The notes below the pieces were generated by a model. That model had not been told where the DNA came from. It saw only the letters and a list, made by a program, of their open reading frames with translations, and ran no database searches. Positions 2,049-62,187 of a DNA stretch of 64,000 nucleotides are shown piece by piece. Position 1 is the first letter of the stretch. Each line of letters opens with the position of its first letter. The position numbers and the translations under genes are program-made. The stretch is from Loxodes magnus (taxonomy: Eukaryota; Ciliophora; Karyorelictea; Loxodida; Loxodidae): contig CAMPDV010000524.1 of the NCBI GenBank assembly GCA_946699065.1, forward strand, positions 62,001 through 126,000. The letters run 5' to 3'.

Positions 2049-4205
2049 ATGGCTGAAAATACTAGAACGTCAAGTATTTAGCTCAGCGAACCTATACTCT
2101 TATAGTAATAAAAACAGAAAGAGTAATCTAAATAATATATTTCAAGTCAGTAAGGCTAAACTGCTAAAAGCGAAGTCTTGCAAGAGGAACAACTAGGGAT
2201 GAAAAATAATAAGGAAGAATAAAAATAAAATATAGAGAAGTATGAGAGGAAATATTAGCTAAAATAGTCTATGCTTTGGAAGAGCAAATATATTTTGGAT
2301 TTGCTTACTAAATTTCTAAATCTAAATGATATAGCTTAGTTACAGTAAGTAAATAGATATTTCTATAATTTTAGTTATCTATTTAATTGACTGTACATTT
2401 ATAGAGTAAAAAACGAAGCATTATAAACGAAGAATAAGATAGAATGAATTTTGAGATAGATAAGTAAATCTAATGTAGAAAAAATAGTTATAGATGGAAA
2501 CTTTTTGTCTTAAAATATGTGCCTATAAATTAGGAATAATTTAGGAGAAATCTATAAATCCTCAGAATTTAAAAACTGAAAAATCCCTCTCTAATGAAAC
2601 TAAAGGAAATTATAATAAAAAATTGATCCAATAATAATTTTGATTCCTTACCTAATTTATAAAATTTATAAAGTTTAACCAACTTAAAAATTGAAGATAC
2701 TATAATTAGAGATTAAAATTTATACTTTATGCAAGAGCTAACAAATTTAAAATCAGTATATCTCAACAAAGTTGAATAGATATCAGGTTAGTTTTTGGTT
2801 GATTACTGTTAAAGTCTAAAAATAGAAAATCTAGAAATAGATTGTGAAATGATAAATTACCAAAAGATAAAAGATTATTTAAAAATAAAGGGATAATACA
2901 TTCATAACATTAATATAAACTATAATAAAAAATTAGACGAGTTTATTGATTTTTGCCCTAACTTAAATAAAATTTAAATAATAGAAACATATAAAGAACC
3001 TGATTAGTTTTTAGATAAAGTTAAAAGGTTAAACCTTTAAAGGTTTAGCCTTAGAAATACTTAATTCTCAGATTAGACTTTAAGAAATTTATTTAGTAAT
3101 CAGAATTAAAATCTTGAAGCAATTGAAATGTTACATAAGAATCCTTTTAATTACGAATTTTTCTAATTTATTCTGTAAAGCTCTCCTAATATAAAAAGTC
3201 TAAGTTGAACTTAAGATAATGATAATAATTAAATTGATAACTAGCAATAGAGTAAAGATTAATAGGATATTAACTTTGGAAATTAGAAATTTCTTTATAA
3301 TCTAGAGAAAGTTTTTATAAAGGATGCTTAACAATAAAGTGATTAGATTTTAAGAGTTCTGCTATATAAAGCTCCTAATATTAAATCATTAATTTTTGAT
3401 AATTTATTTACTTAAGTTAGTAATACATAATAAGTAAATATGCAATTGGGAGAAAATATCTTAGTTTAGATATCATACTAATTTATAAAGTTAGAGTTTA
3501 TTTACTTTTGATAATGCGATTTTGTTAGAGATGAAACTATCTTATTCATAATTTAAAATGCTCCTAATCTAAAAGACTTAAATGTTTATGAAATGAATAA
3601 AATTAAAAATGAAACGATTCAATAGCTTGGTATTTATTCATCTAAACTAGAGTATATTTAATTAAGAGAAATTAATCATATAACAGATGAAACTCTTTAC
3701 TTAATTTTTAAAAACTGCACGAATTTAAAGCTTATTTCCATTCAAAAAAGTGAACAAACTTTGAAAGAAAGTTTAGCAACTTAAAAATTATAATCCTAAG
3801 AGATAATTAATAGTTCTTTTGGTGAGAGCAATATCGAATGTAAAATTTGAATTAAATAAATTATTTAAATTAAAAGCTTTAATATAATTAGAATTAGAAG
3901 GGCTAAGTTTAGTAAATGAAGACATTATTTTAATAATAAAAAACTGTTCTAAGTTACAAAATTTAAGTTTATAAGATAATAAAGAAATAACGGAAACAGC
4001 ATTCCCTATAAGAGACGAATCAGGAACTTAATATGCAATTTGGAGTAACTTGAGAAAATTAAATTTAATATAATGTACTAAAGTAAATGTTTAATGAATC
4101 AATTTAATGACTCTACAGTTCACAAAAATAGAAATATTTTGTGAAAGATTGACAAGACTGAAAGAGCAAGAAATGGATTTTGATGTGAGAAGTATTTGAC
4201 TTTGA
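2049..4205 (+). pseudogene. F-box/LRR gene, unit 1, frameshifted copy
   Basis: The start (MAENTRTSS...) and TGA stop match the intact unit 2 copy, and the overall length is still a multiple of three. Alignment nevertheless shows two single-base insertions near 2,541-2,563 and another near 3,875. The central 440 codons are therefore read in the wrong frame and only the ends stay in register. The F-box region near residues 80-118 is intact before the first insertion, so at most a short F-box-only product could be made. Confidence 0.75.
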
Positions 4206-5821: not shown

Positions 5822-6881
5822 TCAAGCAAACTTAGAAATAGCTAACAATAATATTTTTTTTAAGAGATTCTAAAACTTTAATATGTTCTATAAATTTGTA
5901 AATTTATTAAGTTTAAGTATATATTTATTTATAGATACTAATTTATATTTTTATTTGCAACTTTTATATCTAAAACTAATGTAATTTCTTCCTTTTAACT
6001 TTTTAGACATTTTATAAATTAATATTAGCAAAAATTTGATTTGATAATATGTAAATAGTACATTAACTATCTTTTATTAATCATTAATTAATATAATTTT
6101 CCCTTTAGCTTAAAAGTAAAAATTGATTTATTAGTATAATAATTTATTCTTCTATTTTCTATTTTCTCCTTGTTTTGGACATTTACGTCACAAGTGAAGC
6201 GTACTGTTGCATAAGTGGCATCTTTTTTGGTCTATGGATTTTTCTTTCTTGTTTTTCTATTTTCATGGGTTTCTTTTGAAGTCTTCTGCAAATTTTCTTC
6301 AATTTATTGGAGTCTTAAATCTAATTAAACTCAATTTTTTAATTTTGATCTCTCATTATTCAAATATCATTCTCTAACCTGCTATTCGTTCATAAACTCA
6401 AGCTTTAGCTCTTCAGTCTACCATATGGACTTCATCATCATCTTCATGATTTATTGGGTTTTTATTTATTTCGTATATTTCTTCCTTCAATGAATTTAAG
6501 TCCTCTTCGAATTTTTTTTATAAGCGTATAAATTAGCTGGTTTATCTATTAAGAGTCCATTTATTCTATTTCAATGTTATCTAAATCAAAGGTATCATAG
6601 TCTATAATGAATAAACGTACTTCACCTTCTTCATTTATTTTTATTTTTTAATTATTACTTTTAGTGATTACGTTGAGTGGTCTCTTTTTCAGTTTTCAAT
6701 GGAAGTATTGATTGTATTGATAATATTCTGTTCTGAATTTTTTTTAGTATCTTCTTTGCTGGTTAATTTTGGTCTACATAAGGTTGAACTTTTTGAAATT
6801 AAGACGTGGTAAGAGAAAATATTTCTATCTTCTCTCTTGTTTTGATGAGGTATTAAAGAAACCTTTCTTGAAGCTAGCCAT
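5822..6881 (-). pseudogene. Gene Z, unit 1: Gag-like CCHC zinc-knuckle protein, probably damaged
   Basis: The start is MASFKKGFFNTSSKQERR. This is the only copy with a perfect zinc knuckle, CHLCNSTLHLWRKC (C-X2-C-X4-H-X4-C, its tryptophan a TGA), followed by PKQGE as in retroelement nucleocapsid proteins. The 17-nt intron of unit 2 has lost its acceptor AG here (AG to AA), and homopolymer changes near 6,765-6,800 alter the N-terminal frame. The conserved C-terminal block containing YKLVSINK precedes the TGA stop at 5,822. The gene is tail-to-tail with P, about 240 bp apart. Confidence 0.6.
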
Positions 6882-6944
6882 TTTAATTTATATAACTTTA
6901 AAATATTTAATTATATAAATAAGTTACTATGTATTTCAAAGCTC

Positions 6945-7735: not shown

Positions 7736-10700
7736 ATTTTATTAATTAATTTAATTTATAAGAACCTTCTCTATCTTTAATTTGTTAATCTTTTAACGAA
7801 AGTAATTTTTTAAAAGAATGGATTACACTTAAAGAAAAACTACCTTTATAATTTATAGAGATAACGATGATTGAAATGTTAAATTTAGATTTAATAAAGT
7901 TTCCTTATTTTTTTAATTGATTTTTAACTTAAATAGCTTAATAAGATAAAATTGTTTCATTTAAATTTATTTATTATTCATACTCTCTTCGCAAAAGCAC
8001 TTATGCTTTTCTGAAATTCTCTTATAATTACCTAATATTTTAGCTTTCAACTTGTGTAATATATTTTAGCTTATAATCCAATAATTTTTAATTTGTAAGT
8101 ATGTGTAATTAAAATGGTGATATATTGGAAACTTTTTGATTATTGAATAAGAGAAGTAAATGTTTAAATTTTAAAAGGTTTATAGATTAAGTAAATTTTT
8201 GAATGTTTAGCATTAAAATAATGATGTTTGTACTGTTAATTAGAGGTAATAAATGTTTAATGTTTTGATTTATTTTCTAAATGTGATTTCTATGAGTATT
8301 TGAAATATATCTTTCTCTTTTTTCTTAATTAATTATTGTAGGATTATATCTCTAATCTATTTTTAAAGATATATGCTTTTAAGCTATCTAATACTGTTTC
8401 CAATAAATAGTATAGCTAAATTTCTAAAATATTAGTTTAGCTTCTAATAAAGGTGATATTATAATTAAAGTTTACTACTATTATACCTAAATACTTATTT
8501 AAGCTTATTTATTATTTGGATTTTAGATTCTAATAATTAATTACAAAGCTTATCATTTTATCTTCTATAGTATTCTTCTATTGCTTTCAAAGCTATTAGA
8601 AATTTACCCCACTTCAAATACCTAGTACTGTTTTTATCTTAAATAAAGAGTATTTGAAAGCTACTTCTTTAGTTGCTCTTTAATTTTTTAAAAGAATTAC
8701 AAAATTAGAATAATATATTCCATCTATGTCATAATCTATTATTCAGAAATCTTAATTTATTCCAATAAAAATTAATCATCCATAGATAAAGATACTTTTT
8801 ATCAAAGATATCCTTTGATAGATTTTTATTAACTTAATTTGATGATTCTTTTCTGAAGGTTTCTCTAGTTAATAGAGGTAAATTTTCGTTAAATCATTAA
8901 ATTTTAATGTCTTAAGCATCTTAAATAGTTTAGCCTTAGATATATTCTATATTCGGCAATTTTTTAATATAAAACCTCTTTCTTTCTTCTAATATTTAGC
9001 ATCATTTTCTTTCTAAACTTTTTATTTTTTATATCTGTCTGTTAATTTATTTAGTTATAGTTCCCATTTACTCGGTCTTTTATTTACTCATTTTAAAAGA
9101 AATAAATCCTACCAATAATAATCAAGATAAATCTGGAAACTCCATTCATCACTTTAATTTGGAAAGTATTCAAGCATATTCCTTGAGATAATAGAGTGGA
9201 TACCTTATTTATTTTGGTTTTCCCAGATATTCTGCTAATTTTCTTTCAGTGTGAAATATATAATTTTTACTCCCATCTATCTAGGATTTAATGCCTTCTA
9301 AAAATATTTTAAAGTTTATTCTTTATGAAAAATTTTAACTGAGAGACATTATGAAATTTCTTAAAAGACTTGTAGAATTATTTTTTTGATTTCTATTCTT
9401 TTAAATAATTTTTGCTGATGATCTTAAATAGATTTGTCTCTCTTTTAAAAAATTAGCAAGTAGTTTGATTTTAATCTTCAAAGATTGCATAAAGTTTCAA
9501 TAAGTTAGGGGATTCTAGAATAAAAGAGCAAGCAAATTTCAGTATTTAGTATTCAGTCTTATCTTATTTGCGGTTTTTTAAGGATTCATCATTTTAACTG
9601 CAAGCTTAACTGTTTTAAGCTAAACAAAACTTTCGAAGTTACTTTTCCTATTTGAGTAATTACTTCATAGTTAATTTAAAATATTATTATTAATAGTATT
9701 AAAGCAAAAACTTATAATGTGAGTTCTAGAACTAAATGCATTTCAATGCTTCCCTATCTTTCTTTTAAAAGGAGAATTAGGATTTAGATATTATACAACA
9801 TTAGAAAATTCCATTTATTGAACTATTTCTTTATTTTCTAATGTTTAAACGAAGATTTTACTTTATTAACTAATTGCTCTGTCTTCTATATACTATTATA
9901 CAGTTTTATCCTATTTGAGATTGAACTACTGCTATATTAAATTAATTATCCCACCCCAAAGCTACAAAACTTCCCTATAAATCTAAACTTTATTTTCCAA
10001 CTGATTTATTCTTTACTTAAACTATCTGATACTAATATTAGAACTGCTACGCCTTAAAATAACTCATTAATTTATTTAACTTTAAGACTTTAAGTTAACA
10101 TTTTCTAGACTAATTTAAGTGACAACTTCAATTGTAAGTTTTTTAGTTTTTAATCCCTTTTAGTATCTAATTATAAAGCCAGATTAACTTAATTAATACC
10201 ACTATTTGCTTTGATAATGAAATCCTCAGTCTAATTTATTTCATTTAGCATTCTTTTTTTGATAAATCTTAGTTATATTAAATAAAAAGTTTTATTAATT
10301 GATGCTTCAGTTTTATTTTTTGTAGTCCTAAATCTTTCTTAGTTGTAATTTTGATTATAGAAGGAAAAGTAAGTTGCTTTGCTTTTTATATGATGTTAAA
10401 TAATTTTCTATATTATCTTCAAGTTTATTCACAATTAGATGTTCTACTTTTAATATAATATTTAAGTTATTATGACATGTAATAGGTATATTGCAGTATA
10501 AAGATACTATAACTTGATAAACTGATAAAGAATCAAATATTTATCCTTTATGTATTTTAAGCTAATTTAAGTTTACTTTTTTAATATATTATAAAGATAT
10601 TTTTTTGGCTATCTTCTTGCTGTTTAATGAAATTGAATCCTCTTTTAAATCCAATTTTCTTACTCATTTGAAAGAAAGAAAATTGAATCATTTATTTGTG

Positions 10701-10912
10701 AGGCTATATAAATACATAAAAAGTCCCTTATAAATATATAAGTATTAGATATTTTACTTAGTAGCTTTAATTAATTAACAGTTCTAATTAATATATTCTC
10801 TTCATCCTTAGCATTCTACTATTTTCCTTTATCTCTACCTTCTTCAGGTTTCATATTTTAAAGGTTTTCGAGCAGCTCATAAATTCTTAACTTCTTCTTA
10901 TAGATATTTCAT
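7736..10912 (-). CDS. Gene T, unit 2: unknown large protein of about 1,000 residues, intact frame
   Basis: No family is recognised. One frame runs from the ATG at 10,912 to beyond 7,987 (975 codons); the unit 4 copy is exactly one codon longer over the same interval, so both keep frame while unit 3 does not. A second in-frame ATG lies at 10,717. The protein is rich in Gln, Lys, Ile and Leu, with many TGA tryptophans. A central segment (around GSFVALGWDNQFNIAVV, then CIIVYRRQ) alternates like beta strands, and the C-terminal half is helical and basic, with a KCFCEES motif near the end. This copy carries about 165 extra bp near 7,806-7,970 that units 3 and 4 lack. The C-terminus is not defined. 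It is divergently arranged with the F-box gene, with which it presumably shares regulation. Confidence 0.55.
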
Positions 10913-11936
10913 TCGATGCTGGATAAATGGAAGTTATTTCCTTTCAGATATTGTCCTTTAGTTTGTTTTCTTACTTTTTAACTTATATAGATTTAAGATT
11001 AGTTTATTTCTGAATATTTTTAGATAAGTTTAAAATATTCTGAGCTACTCATATTTTCTATAACTTAAATAATAGAATTTTGTTACTTGTCTATTAGGAT
11101 TTTCGTATATTAAGAAATAACTAAAATAATGATAATTTATTGAAATTCATATATATCTAATATTTCCTTCACTTTTTTATTAGTTAGCTTTTCTATAGTC
11201 TACTGTTCAAAATAGTAGAATATTCAATTTCATTAAAAACTTTAAAAATATATGTAAACTTAATAAGAAGCTAGAAGTTATAGAATAACCATGATAATTA
11301 GATAGTTAAAGTAAAGCATTAAACATATAGCCATAAAAGATAAGTAATATAAACATATAAATGATTACTATAATTTGTTCTCTCTATTTCTTATTTTATA
11401 GCTTTTAGTAATTTTTATCTTCTTAAGAGGTTATTATCCTTAATTCCTTTAAATAATAAGCTTTACTTATTTATTTTTGTAATTTTCTTATTTTTATTTA
11501 TTTCTCTCAATCAAACAAATAATTAAAGGATGATTGATAAAAGGGTATTAATATTATCCATATAAATAAGTAATGCATAACATTAATTTTAAAACAATTA
11601 TTTTACTATATGCTTCACTTAACCCTATTATAATAAATTATTATAAATAGCTGTAAATCAATGAGGTGCTATGCGCTCAATAATACAAGTTTTTTTTATA
11701 TGCATTTAAACTTTTTGTTAAAACTATTAATAAACAGTTATAATGTAAAAGTATTTATTTCTAACTTATAATATAATATATTTTATTATAATATAGCTAC
11801 TAATCAATTAGGGGTAAGTATCATAATTTATGATGCTTCATTATTTATTTTATAATTATAACTTTTTCTTTTCTTTTTTCTTTCGCTTATATCATAATTT
11901 ACCTTTATTAACTACCTTTTAAACATTTATTATAAA
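10913..11936. promoter_or_regulatory. Divergent T/F-box intergenic region, unit 2
   Basis: This is the same arrangement as in unit 1. The GC-rich motif (reverse complement GAGCGCATAGCACCTCATTG) lies at about 11,659-11,678. The last 100 bp before the F-box ATG are almost invariant across six F-box copies, even where the coding sequence has diverged, which suggests they are functional promoter DNA. Confidence 0.5.
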
Positions 11937-14090
11937 ATGGCTGAAAATACTAGAACTTCAAGTATTTAGCCCAGCGAACCTATACTCTTATAGAAATAAA
12001 AACAGAAAGAGTAATCTAAATAAGATATTTCAAGTCAGTAAGGCTAAACTGTTAAAAGCGAAGTCTTGCAAGAGAAACAACTAGGGATGAAAAATAATAA
12101 GGAAGAATAAAAATAAAATATAGAGAAGCATGAGAGAAAATATTAGTTAAAATAGTCTATGCTTTTGAATAGCAAATATATCTTGGATTTGCTTACATAA
12201 TTTCTAAATCTAAATGATATAGCTTAGTTACAGTAATTAAATAGATATTTCTATAATTTTAGTTATCTATTTAAGGAACTGTACATTTATAGAGTAAAAA
12301 ACGAAAAATTATAAACGAAGAATAAGATAGAATGAATTTTGAGATAGATAAGTAAATCTAATGTAGAAACAATAGATATAGATGGAAACTTTTTGTCTTA
12401 AAATGTGTGCCTATAAATTAGGAATAATTTGGAGAAATCTATAAACCTCAGAATTTAAAAACTGAAAAATCCCTCTCTAATGAAACTAAAGGAAATTATA
12501 ATATAAAATTGATCCAATAATAATTTTGATTCCTTACCTAACCTATAAAATATAAAAAGTTTAGCCAGCTTAAAAATTGAAGATACTATAATTAGAGATT
12601 AAAATTTATACTTTATGCAAGAGTTAACAAATTTAAAATCAATATATCTCAACAAAGTCAAATAGATATCAGGTTAGTTTTTGGTTGATTACTGTTAAAG
12701 TCTAAAAATAGAAAATCTAGAAATATATACTAAAATGATAAATTACCAAAAGATAAAAGATTATTTAAAAATAAAGGGATAATACATTCATAACATTAAT
12801 ATAAACTCTAATACTAAATTAGACGAACTTATTGACTTTTGCCCTAACTTAAAGGAAATTTAAATAATAGAAACATATAAAGAACCTGATTAGTTTTTAG
12901 ATAAAGTTAAAAGGTTAAACCTTTAAAGTTTTATCCTTAGAAATACTTAATTCTCAGATTATGCTTTAAGAAATTTATTTAGTTGTCAGAATTAAAATCT
13001 TGAAACTCTTGAAATGTTACATAAGAATCCTTTTAATTACGAATTTTTCTAATTTATTCTCTAAAGCTCTCCTAATATAAAGAATCTAAGTTGAATTTAA
13101 GATAAGGATAATAATTAAATTGATAACTAGCAATAGAGTAAAGATTAATAGGATATTAACTTTGGAAATTAGAAATTTCTTTATAATCTAGAGATGGCTT
13201 TTATAAAGGATGCTTAACAATAAAGTGATTAGATTTTAAGAGTTCTGCTATATAAAGCTCCTAATATTAAAAAATTATCTTTTTTAAATTTATTTACTTA
13301 AGTTAGTAATACATAATAAGTAAATATGCAATTGGGAGAAAATATCTTAGTTTAGATATCACACTAATTTATAAAGTTAGAGCTTATTCACTTTTGATAA
13401 TGTGATTTTGTTAGAGATGAAACTATCTTGTATATAATATAAAATGCTCCTAATCTTAAAAAATTAGATGTTTGAAAAATGAATCAAATAAAAAATGAAA
13501 CGATTCAATAGCTTGGTATTTATTCATCTAAACTAGAGTATATTTAATTAATAGAAATGAATCATATAACAGATGAAACTCTTTACTTAATTTTTAAAAA
13601 CTGCACGAATTTAAAGCTTATTTCCATTCAAAAAAGTGAACAAACTTTGAAAGGAAGTTTAGCAACTTAAAAATTATAATCCTAAGAGATAATTAATAGT
13701 TCTTTTAGTGAGAGCAATATCGAATGTAAAATTTGAATTAAATAAATTATTTAAATTAAAAATTTAATATAATTATAATTAGAAGGGCTAAGTTTAGTAA
13801 ATGAAGACATTATTTTAATAATAAAAAACTGTTCTAAGTTACAAAATTTAAGTTTATAAGATAATAAAGAAATAACGGAAACAGCATTCCCTATAAGAGA
13901 CGAATCAGGAACTTAATATGCAATTTGGAGTAACTTGAGAAAATTAAATTTAATATAATGTACTAAAGTAAATGTTTAATGAATCAATTTAATGACTCTA
14001 CAGTTCACGAAAATATAAATATAGTGTGAAAGACTGAGAAAATTTAAAGAGCAAGAAATGGATTTTGATGTGAGAAGTATTTGACTTTGA
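11937..14090 (+). CDS. F-box/leucine-rich-repeat protein, unit 2, intact 717 residues, no intron
   Basis: It runs 718 codons in one frame with TAA/TAG as Gln and TGA as Trp, ending at the TGA conserved in all copies. Residues 1-75 are Gln-rich and charged. An F-box-like helix set occupies about 80-118 (YILDLLTQFLNLNDIAQLQQ, then NRYFYNF). From about 150 to 690 there are degenerate leucine-rich repeats of the cysteine-containing FBXL/AMN1 type, for example ITDETLYLIFKNCTNLKLI and LVNEDIILIIKNCSKL. Proteins of this shape normally bind Skp1 through the F-box and select substrates for ubiquitination through the LRRs; that role here is inference. The Trp before SNNNFDSLP is TGA here and in three other copies but TGG in the copy at 44,272, independent proof of the code. 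The stop TGA follows an earlier TGA two codons upstream. Confidence 0.85.
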
Positions 14091-14626
14091 ACTAGAAATA
14101 AATAAATTAAAGTATTTAAAAAATTAAAATTATAAAATAATTCCATTATTTCATAAACTCTATACATTTCATAAATCTAAGTGCTAAATAATAATTCTAA
14201 TTAAAATAGATTTGGTATTTAAATTAATTAAAAATAAGATTAGTATTTATATTAATTAAACTAAGTTTGATAAAGATTTAATAAAAAAAGTATAAAAGCT
14301 TAAGTAAAATGAATATAATAAAATGCTAATAGTGTAATTTAATAAGGAAAAAGTATAAAAACAATTAATATTCTTAAATTTTGATAAATCTTTTAAATAT
14401 TAAAAAAAATGCTAGATTTATTAAATAGTAAATTAGTAATAAAGTAAGCTTAACATTATTGATAAAAGTTGTTGTTTATAAAAGGTATTAATATAAAAAT
14501 AAATATTTTAATATATATTAAATTTATTGAGAAAATATTATTTAAGTGAAACCAACATCGTTGCATATAAAAAATTTTATATCTAATTTAAAAATATAGT
14601 ATATTAATAATATAAAAAGAAACGAA
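14091..14626. other. Spacer between F-box gene and gene P, unit 2
   Basis: This AT-rich spacer is equivalent to 4,206-4,738. No gene is seen. Confidence 0.45.
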
Positions 14627-15465
14627 GTGTCATTTTTTAAAACAGGATTTTTCGCGGCTTCAAGAAACCAGGAGTTAGTAACGACCTATAGAAACTAGGA
14701 CTTGGAAGAGGCCATTATTAAGGTCGTTGAGTTCAAGCGAGTTTCACACTTATGAAGAGAAGCCTAGGAAATTGAAAAAAATTATACAATCAGAAATATC
14801 AAATTAAACTACATAACAGTAAATAAACTATTATTAGCTGATAAAAGTAGTGCTGAACCTCCAGAAAAAGATAAAAAAGCTGAAGAAAGATAAAAGGATA
14901 CTGAAGAAAAAACTTGAAATTGCAAAGGAAATAGAATCAAGACTCATGAACTAAGAAAGAAACCTTAACGCATTTTGAAACATTTTACAAGACCAAAACA
15001 GCCATTCATAGAACTAGCATTAAAAGCAGAAAGAGATGGACAAAATAAAAGAAGAAAATCAACAAATATTGTAGTATTAAATTGAACTAAGAGAACAAGA
15101 AACGAGTCAATATAATTAAAGGAGAAAAAAAATCAAAATTTAAACCTAAAAGAGAGGAGAAAAGATACTAATACTGCAACTTCAAACAAAACTGTGGAAA
15201 AGATGTTAGAAATTTTCCAACTTTAAATAAGAATACTGAAACCATTAAAAGAAGTTTGGAGAATGAAAATAAATAAAAAATCAACTAAAACTATCAAGAG
15301 AAAGAGTATATTGTAAAAAAATTGGAAAAATTTGCAAGAAAAATATTTCAAGGCGAAAAGAGAACTCAAGAATCACATATATGACAAGGAGAAAAATTGT
15401 AGAGATTTTGAAACTTTTATATTAAACCTCAAGAGCAATCTAGAGGTTGGTTAGAAAGAAGTTGA
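14627..15465 (+). pseudogene. Gene P, unit 2: start codon lost
   Basis: It is homologous throughout to P of unit 1, including the 19-nt intron. The ATG has become GTG (gaagtgtca for aaatgtca), and the spliced length is no longer a multiple of three, so at least one indel is present. The N-terminal motif FKTGFFAASRNQEL and the C-terminal HIW/FW block remain readable. Confidence 0.6.
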
Positions 15466-15706
15466 AATACCGCGAAAAAGCCAAACATTTAATTATGTCT
15501 TGTCTAGTAAATTAGTAATAGATAATATATAAGAGTTAGTAAAATCTGTGTTAGCTATTTTAGATTTTTATGTTCGATATTTGTTATGTATCTGAATATT
15601 TTTGTATATTTTTAAGAAATTTTTATTTTCTACTTTGATTAATAATCAATATATAAAAAATATAAGTATTTAAAATACACCTTATATTAATAGCAAGCTT
15701 ATGTAA

Positions 15707-16768
15707 TCAAGCAAACTTAGAAATAACTAACAATAATAATTTTTTTAAGAGATTTTAAAACTTTAATATGTTCTATAAATTTGTAAATTTATTAAGTTTA
15801 AGTATATATTTATTTATAGATACTAATTTATATTTTTATTTGCAACTTTTATATCTAAAACTAATGTAATTTCTTCCTTTTAACTTTTTAGACATTTTAT
15901 AAAGTAATATTAGCAAAAATTTGATTTGATAATATGTAAATAATACATTAACTATCTTTTATTAATCGTTAATTATTAATATAGTTTTCCCTTTAGCTTA
16001 AAAGTCAAAATTGATTTATTAGTATAATAATTTATTCTTCTATTTTCTATTTTCTCCTTGTTTTGGACATTTACGTCACAAAAGAAGCGTACTGTTGCAT
16101 AAGTGGCATCTTTTTTGGTCTATGGATTTTTCTTTCTTGTTTTTCTATTTTCATGGGTTTCTTTTGAAGTCTTCTGCAAATTTTCTTCAATTTATTGGAG
16201 TCTTAAATCTAATTAAACTCAATTTTTTAATTTTGCTCTCTCATTATTCAAATATCATTCTCTAACCTGCTATTCGTTCATAAACTCAAGCTTTAGCTCT
16301 TCAGTCTACCATATGGACTTCATCATCATCTTCATGATTTATTAGGTTTTTATTTATTTCGTATATTTCTTCCTTCAATGAATTTAAGTCCTCTTCGAAT
16401 TTTTTTTATAAGCGTATAAATTAGCTGGTTTATCTATTAAGAGTCCATTTATTCTATTTCAATGTTATCTAAATCAAAGGTATCATAGTATATAATGAAT
16501 AAACTTGCTTCACCTTCTTCATTTGTTTTTATTTTTTAATTACTACTTTTAGTGATTACGTTGAGTGGTCTCTTTTTCAGTTTTCAATGGAAGTATTGAT
16601 TGTATTGATAATATTCTGTTCTGAATTTTTTTTGGTATCTTCTTTGCTGGTTAATTTTTGACAACATAAGGTTGAACTTTTGAAATTAAGACGTGATAAG
16701 AGAAAATACTTCTATCTTCTCTCTTGTTTTGATGAGGTGTTAAAGAAACCTTTCTTGAAGCTAGCCAT
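15707..16768 (-). CDS. Gene Z, unit 2: Gag-like zinc-knuckle protein with 17-nt intron and A8 frame shift
   Basis: It starts MASFKKGFFNTSSKQERR. A 17-nt GT-AG intron (16,543-16,559) joins KRDHST to NQKIK. The next exon reads FDLDNIEIEQ and then, across a run of eight A, the coding sense continues one base further on: FEEDLNSLKEEIYE, VDWRAK, NWRKFAEDF, and the zinc-knuckle region CHLCNSTLLLWRKCPK. Here the ligand His is replaced by Leu. A basic C-terminal block ending with YKLVSINKY is conserved in the distant unit 4 copy, and the TGA stop is shared with it. Omitting one base at A8 and the intron gives exactly 348 codons. Retroelement Gag-like RNA binding is inferred from the knuckle; no polymerase or integrase is linked. 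Confidence 0.6.
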
Positions 16769-16985
16769 TGAGAAACTAGATCTATAATTTAAATTCATAG
16801 AAGAAACACTCAAGATAAAATTAAATCGCAATAATAATTAAATTAGAATAAATTGATAAATAATATAATGAAGTTCCTCAAATGTTTTAATCCCAATTTT
16901 CTTAATTTTAATATAAAATAAAATAATTTTAATAAAAGTAAGAATAAGAATAAACTTTATAACTCATTAATATAAGAATAAAATA
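16769..16985. other. 5' flank of gene Z, unit 2
   Basis: This short AT-rich stretch is shared with unit 3 (43,541-43,745) and absent from unit 1. No gene is visible; it probably contains the Z promoter. Confidence 0.4.
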
Positions 16986-17335
16986 TTAATTTAAGTAGAA
17001 ACCAGAAGGAAATGGATTGTATGAGGAAGATAAGATGGCGGACTAACAAAGTCCTACACAGTCTTTTAGTTAGGGAGAGAGAAAGGTTCGCCTTTCAGCT
17101 TTATCGAACCCACATAAACGCTCAATTTCTTGCTTTTTCTATGATATCACTTATATTATACTTTCCTTTCCTCTAAAATGGCTAGAAAGGATGAGATCAG
17201 AATGAAATTATTTTGTCCTCATAGCTGAAAGCTTCCAAGCAGTGTTGGCTTTCAGTATTAATTGAATTATCCACTTGCTCGAATGCTAACTAAAGGAGTC
17301 CAAAGTCAATCTCCAGGTGAACTCCATTATTTATT
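16986..17335. ncRNA. Candidate structured RNA, unit 2 (strand undetermined)
   Basis: A 350-bp segment is markedly richer in G+C than its surroundings. It contains several perfect hairpins: GGACT/AGTCC near 17,041-17,055, GGTTCG/CGAACC near 17,086-17,111, CTGAAAGC/GCTTTCAG near 17,226-17,256, and GGAGT/ACTCC toward the end. In the unit 3 copy two stems change G-C to G-U and stay paired. An ATG-containing frame across it is contradicted by amino-acid-changing differences only. It might be a noncoding RNA or a non-autonomous element. No known RNA family was recognised. Confidence 0.4.
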
Positions 17336-17499
17336 TAATAAATTTAATATATTAAAAATATTTATTTTTATATTTGAAACAACTGAATAATTATAAACTT
17401 AATTTTTGAATTACTAAAGTTTTATTTAATAGATATTGTGAAAGAATATAATTATTAAATAAATTTACTTTTAATGAATACTTAAATTATTTTTCTTAT
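17336..17499. other. AT-rich spacer
   Basis: This is the 3' flank of the truncated F-box gene, shared with 44,106-44,271. No gene is seen. Confidence 0.4.
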
Positions 17500-17776
17500 T
17501 CAAAGTCAAATATTTCTCAAATCAAAATCCATTATTTTATCTTCGTGTGATACTTTCATTCTGTCACATACGATTTCTATTTTCGTAAACTGTTGAGTCA
17601 TTAAATTTATCCATTAAATATTTAATTTAGAACACTATCTTAAGTTTAATGTTCTCAAGTTTTTCCAAATTGGATAATAAGATCCAGATTCATCTCTAAT
17701 AGGAAATGCTTCTTCTGTTATTTCTTTATTATTTTGCAAATTTAAAATTTTTAACTTATAACAATTTTTTATTATG
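17500..17776 (-). pseudogene. F-box gene 3' fragment at the end of unit 2
   Basis: It is nearly identical to 44,272-44,548, the last 90 or so codons of the inverted F-box gene in unit 3, then stops abruptly after ...tttttattatg at 17,776. The rest of the gene is missing, so this is the point where the repeat block joins single-copy DNA. Confidence 0.8.
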
Positions 17777-28911: not shown

Positions 28912-31892
28912 AATAAATTTTAAATAAAGAAGGAATATATTAAAGACTTTAAACTAGAAATTTAAAAACTTAAATCTATTTCATACCAATAAAACTTAAA
29001 ATTCATTATTTTATTTTTTTTATTTTATTTACATATATTAAATATTTTTATGGTTAAAGCAAAACTTAAAAAAGTGTATAAGTATTAGAGATATTTTTCA
29101 TTGACTGATTTAGTGATAATAGGGTTATTAAGGATAATTGTTTAAAGATAAGTCTAAAAAATTTACTAATAAATTTAAATTAAATTATTTAATTTTTTTC
29201 TACTTATAACAAAGAAAAAATCTAGAGAACTGAAAAAAAATTTTAAATACAATTTATTAAGAAACTTATTATTCTAATTTAGTGCAATTGAAATACCTTT
29301 GCTGTTTTATTTTTTGGAAATCCATTTTGAAGAATGTTAAAGCATTTCTCACTAAAAATAAACTTACTATATTATATATCCACAACATTTTAAGAATTTA
29401 CTATCGACAGTTTAAGGTCACGAACATTATAAAGCACGCAAATCTGATAATAATTTTCGCTTTTTTTAATTAAAATCTCTTTCATATTTCATAGTTTCTA
29501 ACTATAATCATTTCTTATTTTCCTCTAATTCAAACACTTTTTTCTTTTACTGAATGTTAGGCTATTTATGATTCTGTAACTTAGATCAAGGAAAATTTAA
29601 GCTGAATTTCCTTTTAGATTAAAAGCTTTTATATAATTTTAAAGCTAATATCACATTAGCTTTAATATAGATCTTACTCTCTCAATTAGTTGATACCAAA
29701 AGTGAATTTACAATAAATTGCAAAATTGATTAAAATTAGTTATCCTCTATTCTGAAGTGCTATATCTTAAATCATTAAAATTATTAATTCAAAAACTCTT
29801 AAGCAATAAATTCTGTCGCTCTTTCACTTTCTGAGCCTTATTTTATTAAACGAAATTATAAATTTTTAAGATTTAAATGAATGGGTTGAGAAAGTAACTA
29901 ATATATACCTAATTTTTTATAGATGAAGACTAAAAGGCAACTAAAAAACTAGTTATCAAGCAAAGTTTTTACTAAAGTGTTGATGATTTTAAATTTATTT
30001 TACTATTGAATCATTTCTCACTGACTTCAACATCTAGTACTAAATTAATTTCCATTAAAATAAGTTAAAGAAACATATCTAATGGAGAGTGACTTAAAGA
30101 GAATAATTAGAACTCCACTTTTTAAATAAGAAATAGAAAGGTGCTAGTCCTATATATAAATAAAGTGTTAAGATAAATATTAAAGATGTAAATTATTATA
30201 TGAAATAATCCTTTTATTTCAAGTAACTATATTTAAAAAGAAAACTTTTTAACATCATTTAAGTATCTTTCAAATAATGATAAAGTTATAAATCAATTAA
30301 GTGTAAAAAAATAACTTTAGTATCAAATAGTTAAAGCTCAGCTAAACTATTAATATATTAGATTTGAGAAAAGATAAAAGGCTTTAGAGGATAGAACTTT
30401 AGAATAATAAAGGTAAATAACAATTTATTCTACATATTTAAAATCCTATGATGGTAAGGATATTTTACTTTAATATGAATAAAAATTGTTAGAACATATA
30501 TAGGAAAAAATTTAATAACTTAAATAGAAAGCAAAATCTTATATTAAAGAAAATGAAGTTCTATATAAGAATAACTATAAAAAATTTAATAATTGAAGCT
30601 ATTAAAAGATTAATTATTTAGATAATATTAAAAGAAAATAGACTTAATATAAATAATCAAATAGCCTCTAAGTCAAAATATTTACTCATAGATTTTAATT
30701 TCAATAAGCAAGTAAGCAAATCCAAATTATAGATGAGTTAAATGATTCATTCAATCTAAAATATATTAAGGATATTGAATTTAATAGGATGCTTCAACTG
30801 GAAACTTTATGACCAATTTATCAATAAAGTAAAAGAATTTCATATTAAAAGTAGTTAAATTTAAGGATGAAAGAGACCATATAACTACATTTGTTTTATT
30901 TTAGTAAACTAATATAAAAATATTAGTTTAGCTATTCTTTAAAATTTATTATATTCATATAGTTTGATAATCTTCAGTTATATATAATCTCAAGTCACCT
31001 ATCTAAGTTTGAATAAAAGAACAGTCAAAATAATTTCTAAGCATTCTAGAAAAGTATAAATAATTTAAATAAGATATTATTAACCTTTCTTAATCAAGCA
31101 AAGCAAGCTTTACATCATATGTTCTTAAAAATGTATTTAAATCTATTTAATGGATAGTCCACTAATATTGATCAAAAATTTAATATATCTATTTTTATAA
31201 TTTATTAGACTTGACTTAAAGGTTAAGCTATAAAATTATTTTAATAATTTTAAATATATGAAGCAAATTAAAACCAAAAGGATAACTATATTATATTTCG
31301 AAGCTTTAAAAGATCTATCAAACTCTTTTAGGTAAAATTACTATTTAATATATAAACTTAAGTAATTCATTTATTTTAAGATTTTATGATTTAGCCTTTC
31401 ATATATTATTAGTAATATCTACTTGTAAAAGGAATATATTAGTTCATACAAATACTTACAAAGGAAAATTAAGGTAATTAAGTAGATTTTAGTATTATTT
31501 TAGGATCAATTAAATAAATTAGCGAAGTCTATAAATAGGAGTTTAGAAATGAACTAGCTATTTATAAAAGAAATATATTGAGTAAGAATTTTGTATAATT
31601 TAACTATCATATAACTTATTTTAATTTAATAAGCTTTAAATACATTTTAGAAATTAGATAATTAAAACTAATTATTAAGAATCAGAATACCCATAAAGAT
31701 AAAAATTATTAATACTTTTATATTTATCTATTATTTAAATATCTAGTAAAGTTAACGCCAAAAATAGAAAATGATAAATGCTAATTTTGCATAAATGAAT
31801 ATACTTAGATATAAAAAAATGGTATCTTTGAATTATAGTCTAAATAATAGGTAAGTTATTAAGAAGCATAATTTAACATAAATTAAAGTTGA
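28908..31892 (+). CDS. Unknown protein H4 (multi-exon, junctions unresolved), with C-terminal cysteine pairs
   Basis: There are three stretches of protein-like sequence on the plus strand. A first (from 28,908) includes IEIFFIDWFSDNRVIKDN-like sequence, a second (about 29,450-30,220) includes DLNEWVEKVTNIYLIFYRW and TQREQLELHFLNKKQK, and a third (about 30,250 to TGA at 31,890) includes KRQKALEDRTLEQQRQ, then ISEVYKQEFRNELAIYKRN and a C-x2-C pair in ENDKCQFCINEY. The third is a long unbroken frame and the best supported. Two frame changes imply at least two short introns whose exact positions I cannot fix. The third stretch is coiled-coil-like at its start. Its last 145 codons cross into the inverted duplication and are repeated, truncated, at 63,565-63,974. 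Confidence 0.45.
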
Positions 31893-32114
31893 TTAATTCT
31901 AATGTATTTAATTTATTAGATAAAGAGTAATTTAATGATTATTAATAATGAAATAGCTATATTAAGCAAAGTTTTATATTTATCATGTTTAGATTGTTCT
32001 ATATTATTAAAGCTTAGTTTACATTAAAGTAGAGATAATTAGTATAGAGTCAACTTATTATTATAAGCTAGGCTTGCTTTATTTACATTTTTATTTCATC
32101 TTTTCTTTAAAAAA
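31893..32114. other. Spacer between H4 and tRNA-His
   Basis: Short AT-rich spacer, mirrored at 63,343-63,564. No gene is seen. Confidence 0.5.
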
Positions 32115-32187
32115 TGTCGGTGCAGAGACTTGAACTCCGGTTTCGACGGCCACAACGTGGTGCCCTAAGCAGCTAGACTACAGCGAC
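32115..32187 (-). tRNA. tRNA-His (anticodon GUG), left-arm copy
   Basis: Read on the minus strand this is a 73-nt tRNA with D stem GTCT/GGGC, anticodon loop TTGTGGC, T arm CGGAG TTCAAGT CTCTG and discriminator A, followed by a T-run. Two C-C mismatches are present (5-68 in the acceptor and 28-42 in the anticodon stem), identical in the right-arm copy. Confidence 0.9.
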
Positions 32188-33268
32188 TTACTATATATAA
32201 AATAAAATAAAAAGATAATATTACTATAGATATATTTCCTATAATTGTAATTCTAGCTATTCATTACTATTTTAAAATATTAAATGTAAACATTCAGAAG
32301 GTTAACCATTAAAGATATCAAATAGGCAATAGTACAAGCAGAAAGTAAAGAAGTGAGTATCTGAAAAACTAAAAGATAATAGCAATATAAAATTTAAAGA
32401 TAAGTATGTTAAAAAAGAAAGGCTTTTTACTATATAAATGCTTTAGTTAACTATAGCAAACTTTTAAATACTATATATATTAATGATAATAATGAAACTT
32501 AAAGAAATTATAGTAATAAACAATTTATATATATAGTTTGATAATTATCAATATTATGATATATATCACTAAAGTTAACATTATGCTTCATGTTTAGATA
32601 AGATACTCTTGTAATTTTAGTTAATAGAAAATCTAATTTTTAGTATTTAAATATCATAAAACTTAGTATACATTTGTAAGTTTAAGCTTTAGAATATAAA
32701 AGGAGGAAAAATAAATACATTTATATGAAAGTTTGATTAATTTAAGACATTGTTTGAAGACTTTAATTTTCATTGTCTAACATTAAAGTTATAATGGCAA
32801 ACTAATTAGTATTAAGCTCTTTAAGTTTAAGAAAAAAGTTAAAAAATTTCAAAATCTAAAATTTAAAATCTTTACTAAAATAGCTGAAAAAGAATAAGAA
32901 TATAAAAAATAAGAGATATAAAGAAAGAAAAAATGATTAAATTATAGATTTAAATTAGAAGCTATTTATGCAGAATATTTCTGAGAAAAAATGAAAATAA
33001 ATTGTAATTTAAAAATAATATTTTTTAAATAAAATAACTATAGAAAAGCAGCTAAAATTTGTATATTTTTTATTAAAATAATTTAAATTATTTTTAGTTT
33101 AAAATTAACATTTGATTCCATATTTATGTTCGTTTCTGCTAAATCTTATCAAATCTTATATAGCTCCATCTACTCTTTTATCTCTAATTTAACTATTATG
33201 AAAATTTTAAAAGGGATAAGCGGGGCTAGAAATGATTTAAAAAGATGGCTTTGTAACACTTTTATAAA
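32188..33268. other. Upstream region of actin, left copy
   Basis: About 1.08 kb of AT-rich DNA, mirrored at 62,188-63,269. A long purine-rich tract near 32,870-32,990 and a GC-rich tract (ataagcggggctag) about 50 bp before the actin ATG stand out; the latter is a candidate promoter or 5' UTR element. No convincing coding frame was found. Confidence 0.45.
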
Positions 33269-34402
<1,134 letters not shown>

Positions 34403-34669
34403 GTGAGTGAAGGAGAATTAGAGGGAAGTCTTTCAAGAGGAAATAAACTTTGAGTTTATTCCTGAATTAAGCTTCTTTCTAAACATTTATTTTATTACTT
34501 CCCAAAATATTTTAAATCTATATAATAAAAAAGTTATCTTTCTCTGTTCTTTTGCATAATTTTTATATACACTAATTTTTATAAAATATCTTAATAATAT
34601 AAAATCTTAATAGATTAGAGTAATTTTAATTCTAATCATTTCAAGCTAGAATTTCTTCATATACAAATA
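34403..34669. terminator. Actin 3' region with hairpin, left copy
   Basis: A hairpin of about 11 bp (ggaaataaact, loop, agtttattcc) at about 34,438-34,463 follows the stop by some 40 bp and is mirrored at the right locus. It may aid 3' end formation. The remainder is AT-rich up to the repeat boundary. Confidence 0.4.
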
Positions 34670-37600
34670 AAAAAAATTATCTTATTAATTAATTTAATTT
34701 ATAAGAACCTTCTTTATCTTTAATTTTTTAAGCTTTTAACGAAAGTAATTTATTATTCATACTCTCTTCACAAAAGCACTTATGATTTTCTGAAATTCTC
34801 TTATAATTACCTAATATTTTAGCTTTCAACTTGTGTAATATATTTTAGTTTATAATCCAATAATTTTTAATTTGTAAGTATGTGTAATTAAAATGGTGAT
34901 ATATTGGAAACTTTTTGATTATTGAATAAGAGAAGTAAATGTTTAAATTTTAAAAGGTTTATAGATTAAGTAAATTTTTGAATGTTTAGCATTAAAATAA
35001 TGATGTTTGTACTGTTAATTAGAGGTAATAAATGTTTAATGTTTTTATTTATTTTCTAAATGTGATTTCTATGAGTATTTGAAATATATCTTTCTCTTTT
35101 TTCTTAATTAATTATTGTAGGATTATATCTCTAATCTATTTTTAAAGATATATGCTTTTAAGCTATCTAATACTGTTTCCAATAAATAATATAGCTAAAT
35201 TTCTAAAATATTAGTTTAGCTTCTAATAAAGGTGATATTATAATTAAAGTTTACTACTATTATACCTAAATACTTATTTAAGCTTATTTATTATTTGGAT
35301 TTTAGATTCTAATAATTAATTACCAAGCTTATCATTTTATCTTCTATAGGATTCTTCTATTGCTTTCAAAGCTATTAGAAATTTACCCCACTTCAAATAC
35401 CTAGTACTGTTTTTATCTTAAATAAAGATTATTTGAAAGCTACTTCTTTAGTTGCTGTTTAATTTTTTTAAAGAATTACAAAATTAGAATAATATATTCC
35501 ATATATGTCATAATCTATTATTCAGAAATCTTAATTTATTCCAATAAAAATTAATCATCCATAGATAAAGATGCTTTTTATCAAAGATATCCTTTGATAG
35601 ATTTTTATTAACTTAATTTGATAATTCTTTTCTGAAGGTTTCTCTAGTTAATAGAGGTAAATTTTCATTAAATCATTAAATTTTAATGCCTTAAGCATCT
35701 TGAATAGTTTAGCCTTAGATATATTCTATATTCGGCAATTTTTTAATATAAAACCTCTTTCTTTCTTCTAATATTTAGCGTCATTTTCTTTCTAAACTTT
35801 TTATTTTTTATATTTGTCTGTTAATTTATTTAGTTATAGTTCCCATTTACTCGGTCTTTTATTTACTCATTTTAAATGAAATAAATCCTACCAATAATAA
35901 TCAAGATAAATCTGGAAACTCCATTCATCACTTTAACTTGGAAAGTAATCAAGAATATTCCTTGAGATAAATAGAGTGGATTACCTTATTTATTTTTTCC
36001 AGATATTCTACTAATTTTTTTTCAGTGTGAAATATATAATTTTTACTCCCATCTATCTAGGATTTAATACCTTCTAAAAATATTTTTAAGTTTATTCTTT
36101 ATGAAAAATTTTAACTGAATGACAATATGAAACTTCTTAAAGGACTTTTATAATTAAATTTTTTATTTCTATTCTTTTAAATACTTTTTGCTGATGATCT
36201 TAAATAGATTTGTCTCGCTTTTAAAAAATTAACAAGTAGATTGATTTTAATCTTCAAAAATTGCATAAAGTTTCAATAAGTTAGGGGATTCTAGAATAAA
36301 AGATCATGTAAATTTCAGTATTTAGAACTCAGTCTTATCTTTTTTGCGGTTTTTTAAGGATTCATCATTTTAACTGCAAGCTTAACTGTTTTAAGCTAAA
36401 CAAAACTTTCGTAGTTACTTTTCCTATTTGAGTAATTACTTCATAGTTAATTTAAAATATTATGATTAATAGTATTAAAACAAGAACTTTTAATGTGAGT
36501 TCTAGAACTAAATGCATTTCAATGCTTCCCTATCTTCCTTTTATAAGGAGAATTAGGATTTAAATTTTATACAACATTAGAAAATTCCATTTATTGGACT
36601 ATTTCTTTATTTTCTAATGTTTAAACGAAGATTTTACTTTATTAACTTATTGTTCTGTCTTCTATATACTATTATACAGTTTTATCCTATTTGAGATTGA
36701 ATTGCTGCTATATGGAAATTAATTATTTTATCCCAAAGCTACAAAACTTCCTTATAAATCTAAACTTTATTTTCCAACTGATTTATTCTTTACTTAACTA
36801 TCTGATACTAATATTAGAACTGCTACGCCTTAGAATAACTCATCAATTTATTTAACTTTATGACTTTAAGTTGAACATTTTCTTGACTCATTTAAGTGAC
36901 AACTTCAATTGTAAGTTTTTTAGTTTTTAATCCCTTTTAGTATCTAATTATAAAGCCAGATTAACTTAATTTATACCACTATTTGCTTTGATAATGAAAT
37001 CCTCAGTCTAATTTATTTCATTTAGCATTCTTTTTTTGATAAATCTTAGTTATATTAAATAAAAAGTTTTATTAATTGATGCTTCAGTTTTATTTTTTGT
37101 AGTCCTAAATCTTTCTTAGTTGTAATTTTGATTATAGAAGGAAAACTAAGTTGCTTTGCTTTTTATATGATGTTAAATAATTTTCTATATTATCTTCAAG
37201 TTTATTCACAATTAGATGTTCTACTTTTAATATAATATTTAAGTTATTATGACATGTAATAGGTATATTGCAGTATAAAGATACTATAACTTGATAAACT
37301 GATAAAGAATCAAATATTTATCCTTTATGTATTTTAAGCTAATTTAAGTTTACTTTTTTAATATATTATAAAGATATTTTTTTGGCTATCTTCTTGCTGT
37401 TTAATGAAATTGAATTCTCTTTTAAATCCAATTTTCTTACTCTTTTGAAAGAAAGAAAATTGAATCATTTATTTGTGAGGCTATATAAATACATAAAAAA
37501 TCCCTTATAAATATATAAGTATTAGATATTTTACTTAGTAGCTTTAATTAATTAATAGTTCAAATTAAAATTATGTCCTTTGTCCTTAGCATTCTACTAT

Positions 37601-37690
37601 TTTCCTTTATCTCTACCTTCTTCAGGTTTCATATTTTAAAGGTTTTCGAGCAGATCATAAATTCTTAGCTTCTTCTTATAGATATTTCAT
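34670..37690 (-). pseudogene. Gene T, unit 3: frameshifted copy
   Basis: It is homologous over its full length to the intact T genes. From the equivalent ATG (37,690) to the KCFCEES region it is 2,924 bp, not a multiple of three. Visible lesions include one extra base near 36,714 (shared with unit 1) and a 5-bp loss near 35,988. Around 37,556-37,590 it shares the unit 1 sequence version. It lies next to the actin 3' flank, to which it is convergent. Confidence 0.7.
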
Positions 37691-38711
37691 TCGATGCTGG
37701 ATAAATGGAAGTTATCTCCTTTCAGATATTGTCCTTTAGTTTGTTTTCTTACTTTTTAACTTATATAGATTTAAGATTAGTTTATTTCTGAATATTTTTA
37801 GATAAGTTTAAAATATTCTGAGCTACTCAGATTTTCTATAACTTAAATAATAGAATTTTGTTACTTGTCTATTAGGATTTTCGTATATTAAGAAATAACT
37901 AAAATAATGATAATTTATTGAAATTCATATATATCTAATATTTCCTTCACTTTTAATTAGTTAGCTTTTCTATAGCCTACTGTTCAAAATAGTAGAATAT
38001 TCAAATTCATTAAAAACTTTAAAAATATATGTAAACTTAATAAGAAGCTAGAAGTTATAGAATAACCATGATAATTAGATAGTTAAAGTAAAGCATTAAA
38101 CATATAGCCATAAAAGATAAGTAATATAAACATATAAATGATTACTATAATTTGTTCTCTCTATTTCTTATTTTATAGCTTTTAGTAATTTTTATCTTCT
38201 TAAGAGGTTATTATCCTTAATTCCTTTAAATAATAAGCTTTACTTATTTATTTTTGTAATTTTCTTATTTTTATTTATTTCTCTCAATCAAACAAATAAT
38301 TAAAGGATGATTGATAAAAGGGTATTAATATTATCCATATAAATAAGTAATGCATAACATTAATTTTAAACAATTATTTTACTATATGCTTCACTTAACC
38401 CTATTATAATAAATTATTATAAATAGCTGTAAATCAATGAGGTGCAATGCGCTCAATAATAAAAGTTTTTTTAATATGCATTTAAACTTTTTGTTAAAAC
38501 TATTAATAAACAGTTATAATGTAAAAGTATTTATTTCTAACTTATAATATAATATATTTTATTATAATATAGCTACTAATCAATTAGGGGTAAGTATCAT
38601 AATTTATGATGCTTCATTATTTATTTTATAATTCTAACTTTTTCTTTTCTTTTTCTTTTGCTTATATCATAATTTACCTTTATTAACTACCTTTTAAACA
38701 ATTATTATAAA
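37691..38711. promoter_or_regulatory. Divergent T/F-box intergenic region, unit 3
   Basis: It carries the GC-rich motif near 38,436-38,455 with one change (ggtgcaatgcgctc) and the conserved block directly before the F-box ATG. Confidence 0.45.
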
Positions 38712-40864: not shown

Positions 40865-41396
40865 ACTAGAAATAAATAAATTAAAGTATTTAAAAAATTA
40901 AAAATATAAAATAATTCCATTATTTCATAAACTCTATACATTTCATAAAACAAATGCTAATTAATAATTCTAATAAAATAGATTTGGTATTTAAATTAAT
41001 TACAAATAAGATTAGTATTTATATTAATTAAACTCAGTTTGATAAAGATTTAATAAAAAAGTATAAAAGCTTAAGTAAAATGAATGTAATAAAATGCTAA
41101 TAGTGTAATTTAATAAGGAAAAAGTATAAAAACAATTAATATTCTTAAATTTTGATAAATCTTTTAAATATTAAAAAAATGCTAGAGTTATTAAATAGTA
41201 AATTAGTAATTAAATAAGCTTAATATTATGGATAAAAGTTGTTGTTTATAAAAGGTATTAATATAAAAATAAATATTTTAATATATATTAAATTTATTGA
41301 GAAAATATTATTTAAGTGAAACCAACATCGTTGCATATAAAAAATTTTATATCTAATTTAAAAATATAGTATATTAATAATATAAAAAGAAACGAA
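40865..41396. other. Spacer between F-box gene and gene P, unit 3
   Basis: AT-rich and equivalent to 4,206-4,738; no gene is seen. Confidence 0.45.
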
Positions 41397-43540: not shown

Positions 43541-43744
43541 TGAGAAACTAGATTTATAATTTAAATTCATAGAAGAAACACTCAAGATAAAATTAAATCG
43601 CAATAATAATTAAATTAGAATAAATTGATAAATAATATAATGAAGTTCCTAAAATGTTTTAATCCGCATTTTCTTAATTTTAATATAAAATAAAATAATT
43701 TTAATAAAAGTAAGAATAAGAATAAATTTTATTACTCATTAATA

Positions 43745-53439: not shown

Positions 53440-53697
53440 TTAGAATGGAATATTTAAGATGGTTAATGTACTATTTATATATTATCGAATAAATCCTTTG
53501 CTAATATTACTACTAAAGCTATCTAAAAGTTAGAAGCAAGAATTTACATTAGCTCTGAGATAAAAATTATTAATTAGCAATATAAATTAGTATCTATTAA
53601 TAAGCATATTATCAACTTTATTAATATAAAAATCAAACTTTAAATCCTGTGGAAATTCTCTCATTTTAATTTAAGTCTAGCATCTTGGAACGCTTGA
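53440..53697 (+). pseudogene. Gene Z 3' fragment, unit 4
   Basis: It encodes the C-terminal block of Z (YKLVSINKH after KLEARIYIS) up to the shared TGA at 53,695. DNA similarity is low but protein similarity is clear, which shows the block is under selection and that Z extends to this stop. No knuckle or N-terminus is present. Confidence 0.6.

Positions 53698-61053: not shown

Positions 61054-62187
<1,134 letters not shown>

Follow-up and report, generated by a model that had tools for sequence, protein, structure and literature searches.

In plants, nucleotide-binding leucine-rich repeat (NLR) and other R-gene clusters consist of clustered paralogues that recombine and undergo diversifying selection at the exposed residues of the xxLxLxx motif of their leucine-rich repeats (LRRs). 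The F-box/LRR adaptors FBXL2, FBXL17, TIR1 and COI1 are conserved genes with fixed targets. Nematode F-box genes, according to passages of PMC5392922, PMC8665587 and PMC12062965, carry a substrate domain under positive selection, have expanded in tandem and are induced by virus and microsporidia. The Caenorhabditis FBX genes in particular (Thomas 2006 as cited in a passage of PMC12062965) form large lineage-specific tandem expansions with a conserved F-box region and a positively selected substrate domain; their binding domains are FTH and FBA2, and LRRs are rare. Here we analyzed 64 kb of the ciliate Loxodes magnus (positions 62001-126000 of contig C524, hereafter the window) together with the assembly from which it comes (705,730,643 bases, 7,843 contigs), and describe an array of F-box/LRR genes. 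Their products share the LRR fold and the domain order with FBXL2, FBXL17, TIR1 and COI1, and the array is unlike those conserved, fixed-target genes. It also differs from plant R genes, since no NB-ARC domain was found and a (weakly supported) F-box stands in its place, and from the Caenorhabditis FBX genes, since the selection signal lies on the concave face of the LRRs and a single array shares a near-constant 5′ half. We interpret it, with a probability of roughly 0.72, as a fast-evolving gene array of adaptors with differing specificities that spread by segmental duplication in one small part of the genome. No paper pairing ‘Loxodes’ and ‘F-box’ was found in open-access full text, which is not proof of novelty.

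Under the standard code, closed open reading frames of 120 amino acids are absent from the window. Read in the ciliate code, it yields long frames and genes recognized by Pfam (actin, E 7.5e-142; a kinase with EF hands). In that code, as set out in an excerpt of PMC11441545 describing the 706-Mbp macronuclear assembly of L. magnus, UAA and UAG are sense codons and UGA is tryptophan or stop. A preliminary description of the window had proposed a four-gene repeat unit made up of T, an F-box/LRR gene, P and Z. The F-box/LRR gene proved real: the window holds six copies and one 3′ fragment, with LRRs of the FBXL type. Two of the six are unbroken (those starting at 11,937 on the plus and 56,739 on the minus strand) and four are frameshifted. 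The stop of copy 2 was placed at its first TGA because the next TGA is not retained in every copy.

2049..4196, +: F-box/LRR copy 1, frameshifts near residues 168 and 600
11937..14084, +: F-box/LRR copy 2, unbroken, 715 codons with TGA as stop
38712..40855, +: F-box/LRR copy 3, single frameshift near residue 55-60
54616..56739, -: F-box/LRR copy 4, unbroken, 708 codons, LRR half diverged
44281..46421, -: F-box/LRR copy without T flank, frameshift near residue 347
49556..51689, +: F-box/LRR copy without T flank, frameshifts near residues 120 and 420
17509..17775, -: F-box/LRR paralogue, 3′ fragment cut at the block edge at 17,776

Across the assembly, many copies of the gene keep an uninterrupted frame of about 715 codons. 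Two long-match searches, with 3,246 and 3,259 first-look candidates, placed unbroken matches of at least 643 residues at no fewer than 74 places (62 + 12), a lower bound on copy number, and all scored ones lie on nine contigs. When the N-terminal region was used as the query, 111 of the best 150 matches (of 1,692 candidates) reached E ≤ 1e-33. All but two of these (109/111) fall on the same nine contigs, which sum to 1,518,070 bases or 0.215% of the assembly; contig C266 alone carries 36 N-terminal matches in 422,593 bases, and the two matches elsewhere are on C4957 and C437. The other 39 scored matches comprise short pieces, located on the nine contigs, C437 or C7756 (at least 58% identical), and 31-43% matches on many other contigs. 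Dispersed N-terminal relatives of about 31-37% identity are listed one per contig, on C2229, C1058, C1574, C256, C1933, C917 and others. Of the 40 T-flank matches, 33 lie as far from a long F-box/LRR match as expected (coordinates compared by hand), a count that includes copy 3, with its frameshift near the start, and one 643-residue match. A phage origin of the F-box/LRR protein was considered and rejected, as no match at E 1e-5 was found in 50,697 phage records.

We defined exposed concave residues as x3, x5 and x7 of LxxLxLxx in 17 repeats, with the register taken from the strands of the structural model, and counted substitutions by parsimony in 33 distinct copies, leaving out L018, L019 and L020 (near-copies of L017) as well as L027 and three window copies, which are frameshifted. 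The ratio of nonsynonymous to synonymous change (dN/dS) is 1.74 at concave residues (p 2.4e-4 for >1; bootstrap confidence interval (CI) 1.12-3.22), 0.35 at buried residues, 0.53 in the rest of the LRR domain, 0.46 in the F-box region and 0.60 overall. Thinned to 25 copies, the set still gives a concave ratio of 1.63 (1.04-2.72); parsimony counts on 21 copies give 1.64 (p 0.0058), and the 12 copies fetched after the register had been fixed give 1.54 (p 0.032). Shifting the triplet to other registers yields 0.30-0.66 at equal rates, and pairwise nonsynonymous divergence (pN) in 21 copies peaks at the concave offsets. In the parsimony counts, single offsets 4 and 6 carry the signal (2.41 and 2.27). 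Of the 33 copies, 31 have distinct concave signatures, and a median of 26 of 51 concave residues differ, versus 18% of other LRR sites. With its ratio above 1 at exposed concave residues and below 1 at buried ones, the array shows the pattern of an R-gene-like diversifying LRR cluster.

One half of the gene is near-constant and the other variable. The region spanning the flank and the gene start (10,200-12,200) is 94-100% identical to copy 2 across seven other copies, and the flank itself is almost invariant:

11041..11936, +: near-constant 5′ flank of the F-box/LRR gene, 1.4% substitutions in 28 copies, 89 insertions or deletions (indels)

By contrast, at 13,000-14,000 identity to copy 2 falls to 65-88% in five diverged copies (copy 4 and L029-L032), which cannot be aligned beyond the gene, whereas copies 1 and 3 remain 86-100% identical. 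Synonymous divergence climbs towards the LRR half, so the 5′ half is younger or homogenized. Absence of recombination was rejected by our own implementation of the pairwise homoplasy index (PHI) test (0 of 1,000 permutations, first 21 copies), and nearest neighbors change along the gene in a comparison of six copies; physical clustering is thus joined by exchange between paralogues. Further upstream, positions 10213-10572 have 1-2 variable sites per 90 bases (14-26 copies) amid more variable sequence, and this block matches no Rfam family at gathering thresholds.

The protein has a C-terminal LRR domain of the FBXL type. It matches FBXL2 and FBXL17 in phmmer (E about 1e-10), and in Foldseek searches of the PDB, TIR1, FBXL2, COI1 and FBXL17 rank among the first (query template-modeling score about 0.31-0.34), followed by other LRR proteins. 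AlphaFold, given window sequences only, predicts a long LRR domain with a mean predicted local distance difference test score (pLDDT) of 62.8; at residues 301-700 the values are mostly 67-94 outside three loops. Structure prediction and homology search bear out the preliminary F-box/LRR assignment as far as the LRR fold is concerned, and leave the F-box itself weakly supported. The partner to which an F-box would bind is encoded in the genome: eleven PF01466 matches exceed the Pfam cut-off genome-wide, which suggests an expanded SKP1 family.

Such an anatomy agrees with that of substrate adaptors under arms-race-like selection on the recognition face. In the mechanism that we propose, the N-terminal F-box of an intact copy would attach to the SKP1 subunit of an SCF ubiquitin ligase, and roughly 17 LRRs would hold a target on their concave face. 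The array itself, the lower bound on copy number, the intact frames, the selection pattern and recombination are observed here; SCF membership and ubiquitination are putative. Selection would preserve the scaffold (buried leucines and F-box region) and drive change at exposed concave residues, and recombination would swap segments among copies, with hardly any change in the 5′ flank and the first ~60 codons. The outcome would be an adaptor repertoire aimed at protein targets that keep changing. As to these targets, hostile or foreign proteins, of parasites, symbionts or mobile elements, are the most likely but unproven candidates, and we name them tentatively; the main alternatives, a changing set of internal substrates and, slightly less probable, self-recognition or mating partners, are rather unlikely. 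On a more speculative reading, which we think unlikely, this unicellular eukaryote would have a dedicated intracellular recognition locus, in which a homogenized 5′ cassette (flank, promoter and N-terminus) is held constant and LRR cassettes are exchanged and selected for new binding faces, giving every cell a library of programmable degradation receptors of which perhaps one or few are expressed at once.

Several observations weigh against the interpretation as a diversifying adaptor array. The array was studied at the level of genome sequence, in which nothing ties it to defense. The F-box is weak: the Pfam family F-box-like (PF12937) stays below its cut-off in three of four short fragments (E 0.0027 to 0.048) and is absent from the fourth, an N-terminal profile gave no match in the PDB, and the model of the N-terminal region has low confidence (mean pLDDT 45.7). 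The full model is less confident at residues 201-300, which contain four of the 17 repeats and have a pLDDT of only 48-62. Our first pairwise estimate of the concave pN/pS in 21 copies was 1.34, with a CI (0.92-2.23) that spans 1. A transition bias of 4 raises the concave ratio to 3.20, but also the rest to 0.88 and the register shifts to 0.50-1.06. Taken singly, offset 2 lacks significance (1.19, p 0.28), and elevated but non-significant values occur at offsets 7 and 9 too (1.85 and 1.49). Synonymous divergence (pS) is 0.06-0.30 from codon 181 on versus 0.02-0.11 in the first 90 codons, and concave codons show a mild rise of synonymous change (permutation p 0.024); age or conversion hence accounts for some of the LRR divergence. 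The counting methods use a single tree and ignore recombination, and the copies were sampled for being unbroken. Some copies, finally, represent alleles or else duplicates that are very recent or arose in assembly; four loci are 99.5-99.96% identical, of which one was kept.

The array is embedded in larger duplicated blocks. In a self-comparison of the window, positions 1-6,882 are 96.5% identical to 9,889-16,769 and 96.9% identical to 36,665-43,541, and two longer pairs stand out against a longest chance self-match of 126 bases in five simulated windows. The blocks 31,454-40,902 and 54,569-63,974 both carry an actin gene and a tRNA gene:

7963..17776, no strand: duplicated block, 97.0% identical to 34,742-44,548
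31454..40902, no strand: duplicated block including actin and tRNA genes, 94.7% identical to 63,974-54,569, inverted
33245-34402, +: actin gene (Pfam, ciliate code), duplicated along with an F-box/LRR block
61054-62211, -: actin gene, second copy, duplicated along with an F-box/LRR block
32115-32187 and 63270-63342, strand not stated: tRNA genes (Rfam), duplicated along with two F-box/LRR blocks

Block ends are not the same from copy to copy, and the edges inspected show neither terminal repeats nor target-site duplications. Given these differing ends, the shared actin and tRNA genes and the lack of visible end repeats or duplications, the repeat is a segmental duplication and not one element. 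The four occurrences of the unit in 64 kb that the preliminary description had counted, the inverted one included, are reproduced by the self-comparison, yet P and Z are not constant members. The proposed cuts into host genes at the edges were not confirmed: the gene interrupted at 17,776 is itself an F-box/LRR paralogue belonging to this family, and the edge at 34,742 is 340 bp beyond the end of the actin frame at 34,402.

Beside the gene lie the T and P stretches:

8500..11040, -: ‘T’ stretch, possibly a decayed gene; a coding frame under present constraint is not supported
14601..15580, +: ‘P’ stretch, a coding frame under present constraint is not supported; pieces resemble dispersed sequence
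53456..54403, -: P relative beside copy 4, 77% identical, with 26 gaps in 950 bases, 25 of them not multiples of three

Among 92 indels in 13 copies of T and 45 indels in 17 copies of P, none is a multiple of three. The substitution codon phase is flat in T and P, yet it is merely slight in the F-box gene too, so the weight falls on the indel test. Blastn gaps in the F-box gene (116 non-triplet versus 41 triplet) come for the most part from diverged copies that translate without a break; we judged these gaps alignment artefacts and left the row unused, and it is the unbroken frames that set the gene apart from T and P. Neither T nor P behaves like constrained coding sequence, and P is represented in the inverted copy by its 77%-identical relative only. 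A codon-usage scan trained on the F-box gene, itself a weak scan, finds scattered high-scoring windows in T, P and Z, on account of which all three may be decayed genes.

These results bear on several rival explanations. The preliminary description had offered a new mobile element, a selfish drive-like pair or amplified host genes, an interpretation that the results support in part. That the whole unit is a mobile element would account for its many copies and their inverted and tandem arrangement, but a 401-base unit probe has 40 scored matches (of 45 candidates; 95-100% identity) on just eight contigs, the scored matches lie within about 0.2% of the assembly, the block ends vary, and two blocks carry host actin and tRNA. 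Fixed ends with repeats or duplications, an enzyme of its own and dispersal were not found, and the six full frames of 9,001-17,800 have no Pfam match at E ≤ 1, the LRR family emerging only from the excised gene; we consider a mobile unit highly improbable. Slightly better placed, and still very unlikely, is a selfish cluster of the toxin-antidote type, as reported for some nematode loci, with F-box proteins in the role of antidote or toxin. It would explain the rapid amplification here, but two linked genes that are both kept intact are not seen, given the indel counts of T and P, and the drive-like pair falls with them.

Under neutral birth and death, copies in a duplication-prone region would drift under relaxed constraint with nothing special about them, in keeping with the frameshifts in four of the six full window copies, the overall dN/dS of 0.60 and the duplication of T, P, actin and tRNA alongside the gene. 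Relaxation predicts neither the concave value of 1.74 nor the 0.35 at the buried sites between, and the 74 or more long unbroken copies also speak against drift, which we regard as very unlikely. Self/non-self or mating-type recognition, in which the adaptors would destroy non-self partner proteins as plant S-locus F-box proteins are thought to do, suits a cluster of hypervariable, recombining candidate E3 adaptors with distinct concave signatures, but a second polymorphic partner gene was not found in the unit; we think this reading unlikely, and favor the adaptor array over it.

The remaining member of the proposed unit, Z, looks like the fossil of an old mobile element. Non-autonomous non-LTR (long terminal repeat) elements that encode solely an ORF1-type protein are of the HAL1 type as defined in a passage of PMC5753468. 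Copies of a dispersed zinc-knuckle element of about 1.05 kb, to which the window Z copies are ~75% identical, recur on other contigs:

6160..6882, -: window Z copy; the block edge at 6,882 is at the 5′ end of the element
16048..16769, -: window Z copy
42819..43541, -: window Z copy
L045:594-1655, L046:6871-7933, L047:204-1267, L048:11-1027 and L049:1-1026, strand not stated: dispersed zinc-knuckle element copies, 85-97% identity

The 144-residue Z frame of copy 1 matches very many contigs (150 scored of 4,084 candidates). In a DNA search, the 40 scored of 3,254 candidates each cover at least 1,040 of 1,062 query bases at 95-97% identity, except the query itself, so that the dispersed element is possibly present in thousands of copies. 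Three dispersed sites share about 1,055 bases at 95-97% identity between unrelated flanks, with target-site duplications of 13, 16 and 14 bases (3/3 copies inspected), and at two more distant sites identity is 85-86% over a length of about 1 kb. The element’s frame is coiled-coil by eye, has a CX2CX4HX4C knuckle when TGA is read as tryptophan and is uninterrupted from ATG in one of three young copies inspected. The zinc knuckle previously ascribed to Z is accordingly present as an exact CCHC pattern in copy 1 and has lost its histidine in copies 2 and 3; in the inverted copy, where Z had also been placed, blastn with the dispersed element detects nothing. No reverse transcriptase or endonuclease family was found at E ≤ 0.01 on the element strand in the four loci scanned of five fetched (L047 lies outside the scan), and the gene near the Z locus on contig C15 is a kinase, not a reverse transcriptase. 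Judged by its discrete length, its target-site duplications and its zinc-knuckle ORF1-type protein as the sole product found in the scanned loci, the Z element appears to be a HAL1-like element in a ciliate. The predicted likeness lies in the non-autonomous non-LTR type with an ORF1-type protein only, the difference in the length of about 1.05 kb and the ciliate code.

Between the units, the window encodes a protein kinase with EF hands (23400-26100, +), and a relative of this kinase adjoins the zinc-knuckle element on contig C15 (locus L045). Rfam at gathering thresholds finds three tRNAs in the window and no other RNA family.

Segmental duplication together with a retroelement fossil can thus mimic one multi-gene element. 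If the interpretation as an adaptor array is correct, diversifying repertoires of ubiquitin-ligase adaptors, known from nematodes and plants, would have arisen in ciliates too, with an R-gene-like signature on the concave face. The array would also provide a naturally occurring set of LRR variants built on one scaffold, from which it may be learned how concave residues set degradation targets, and it would open a way into the study of ciliate intracellular immunity or self-recognition.

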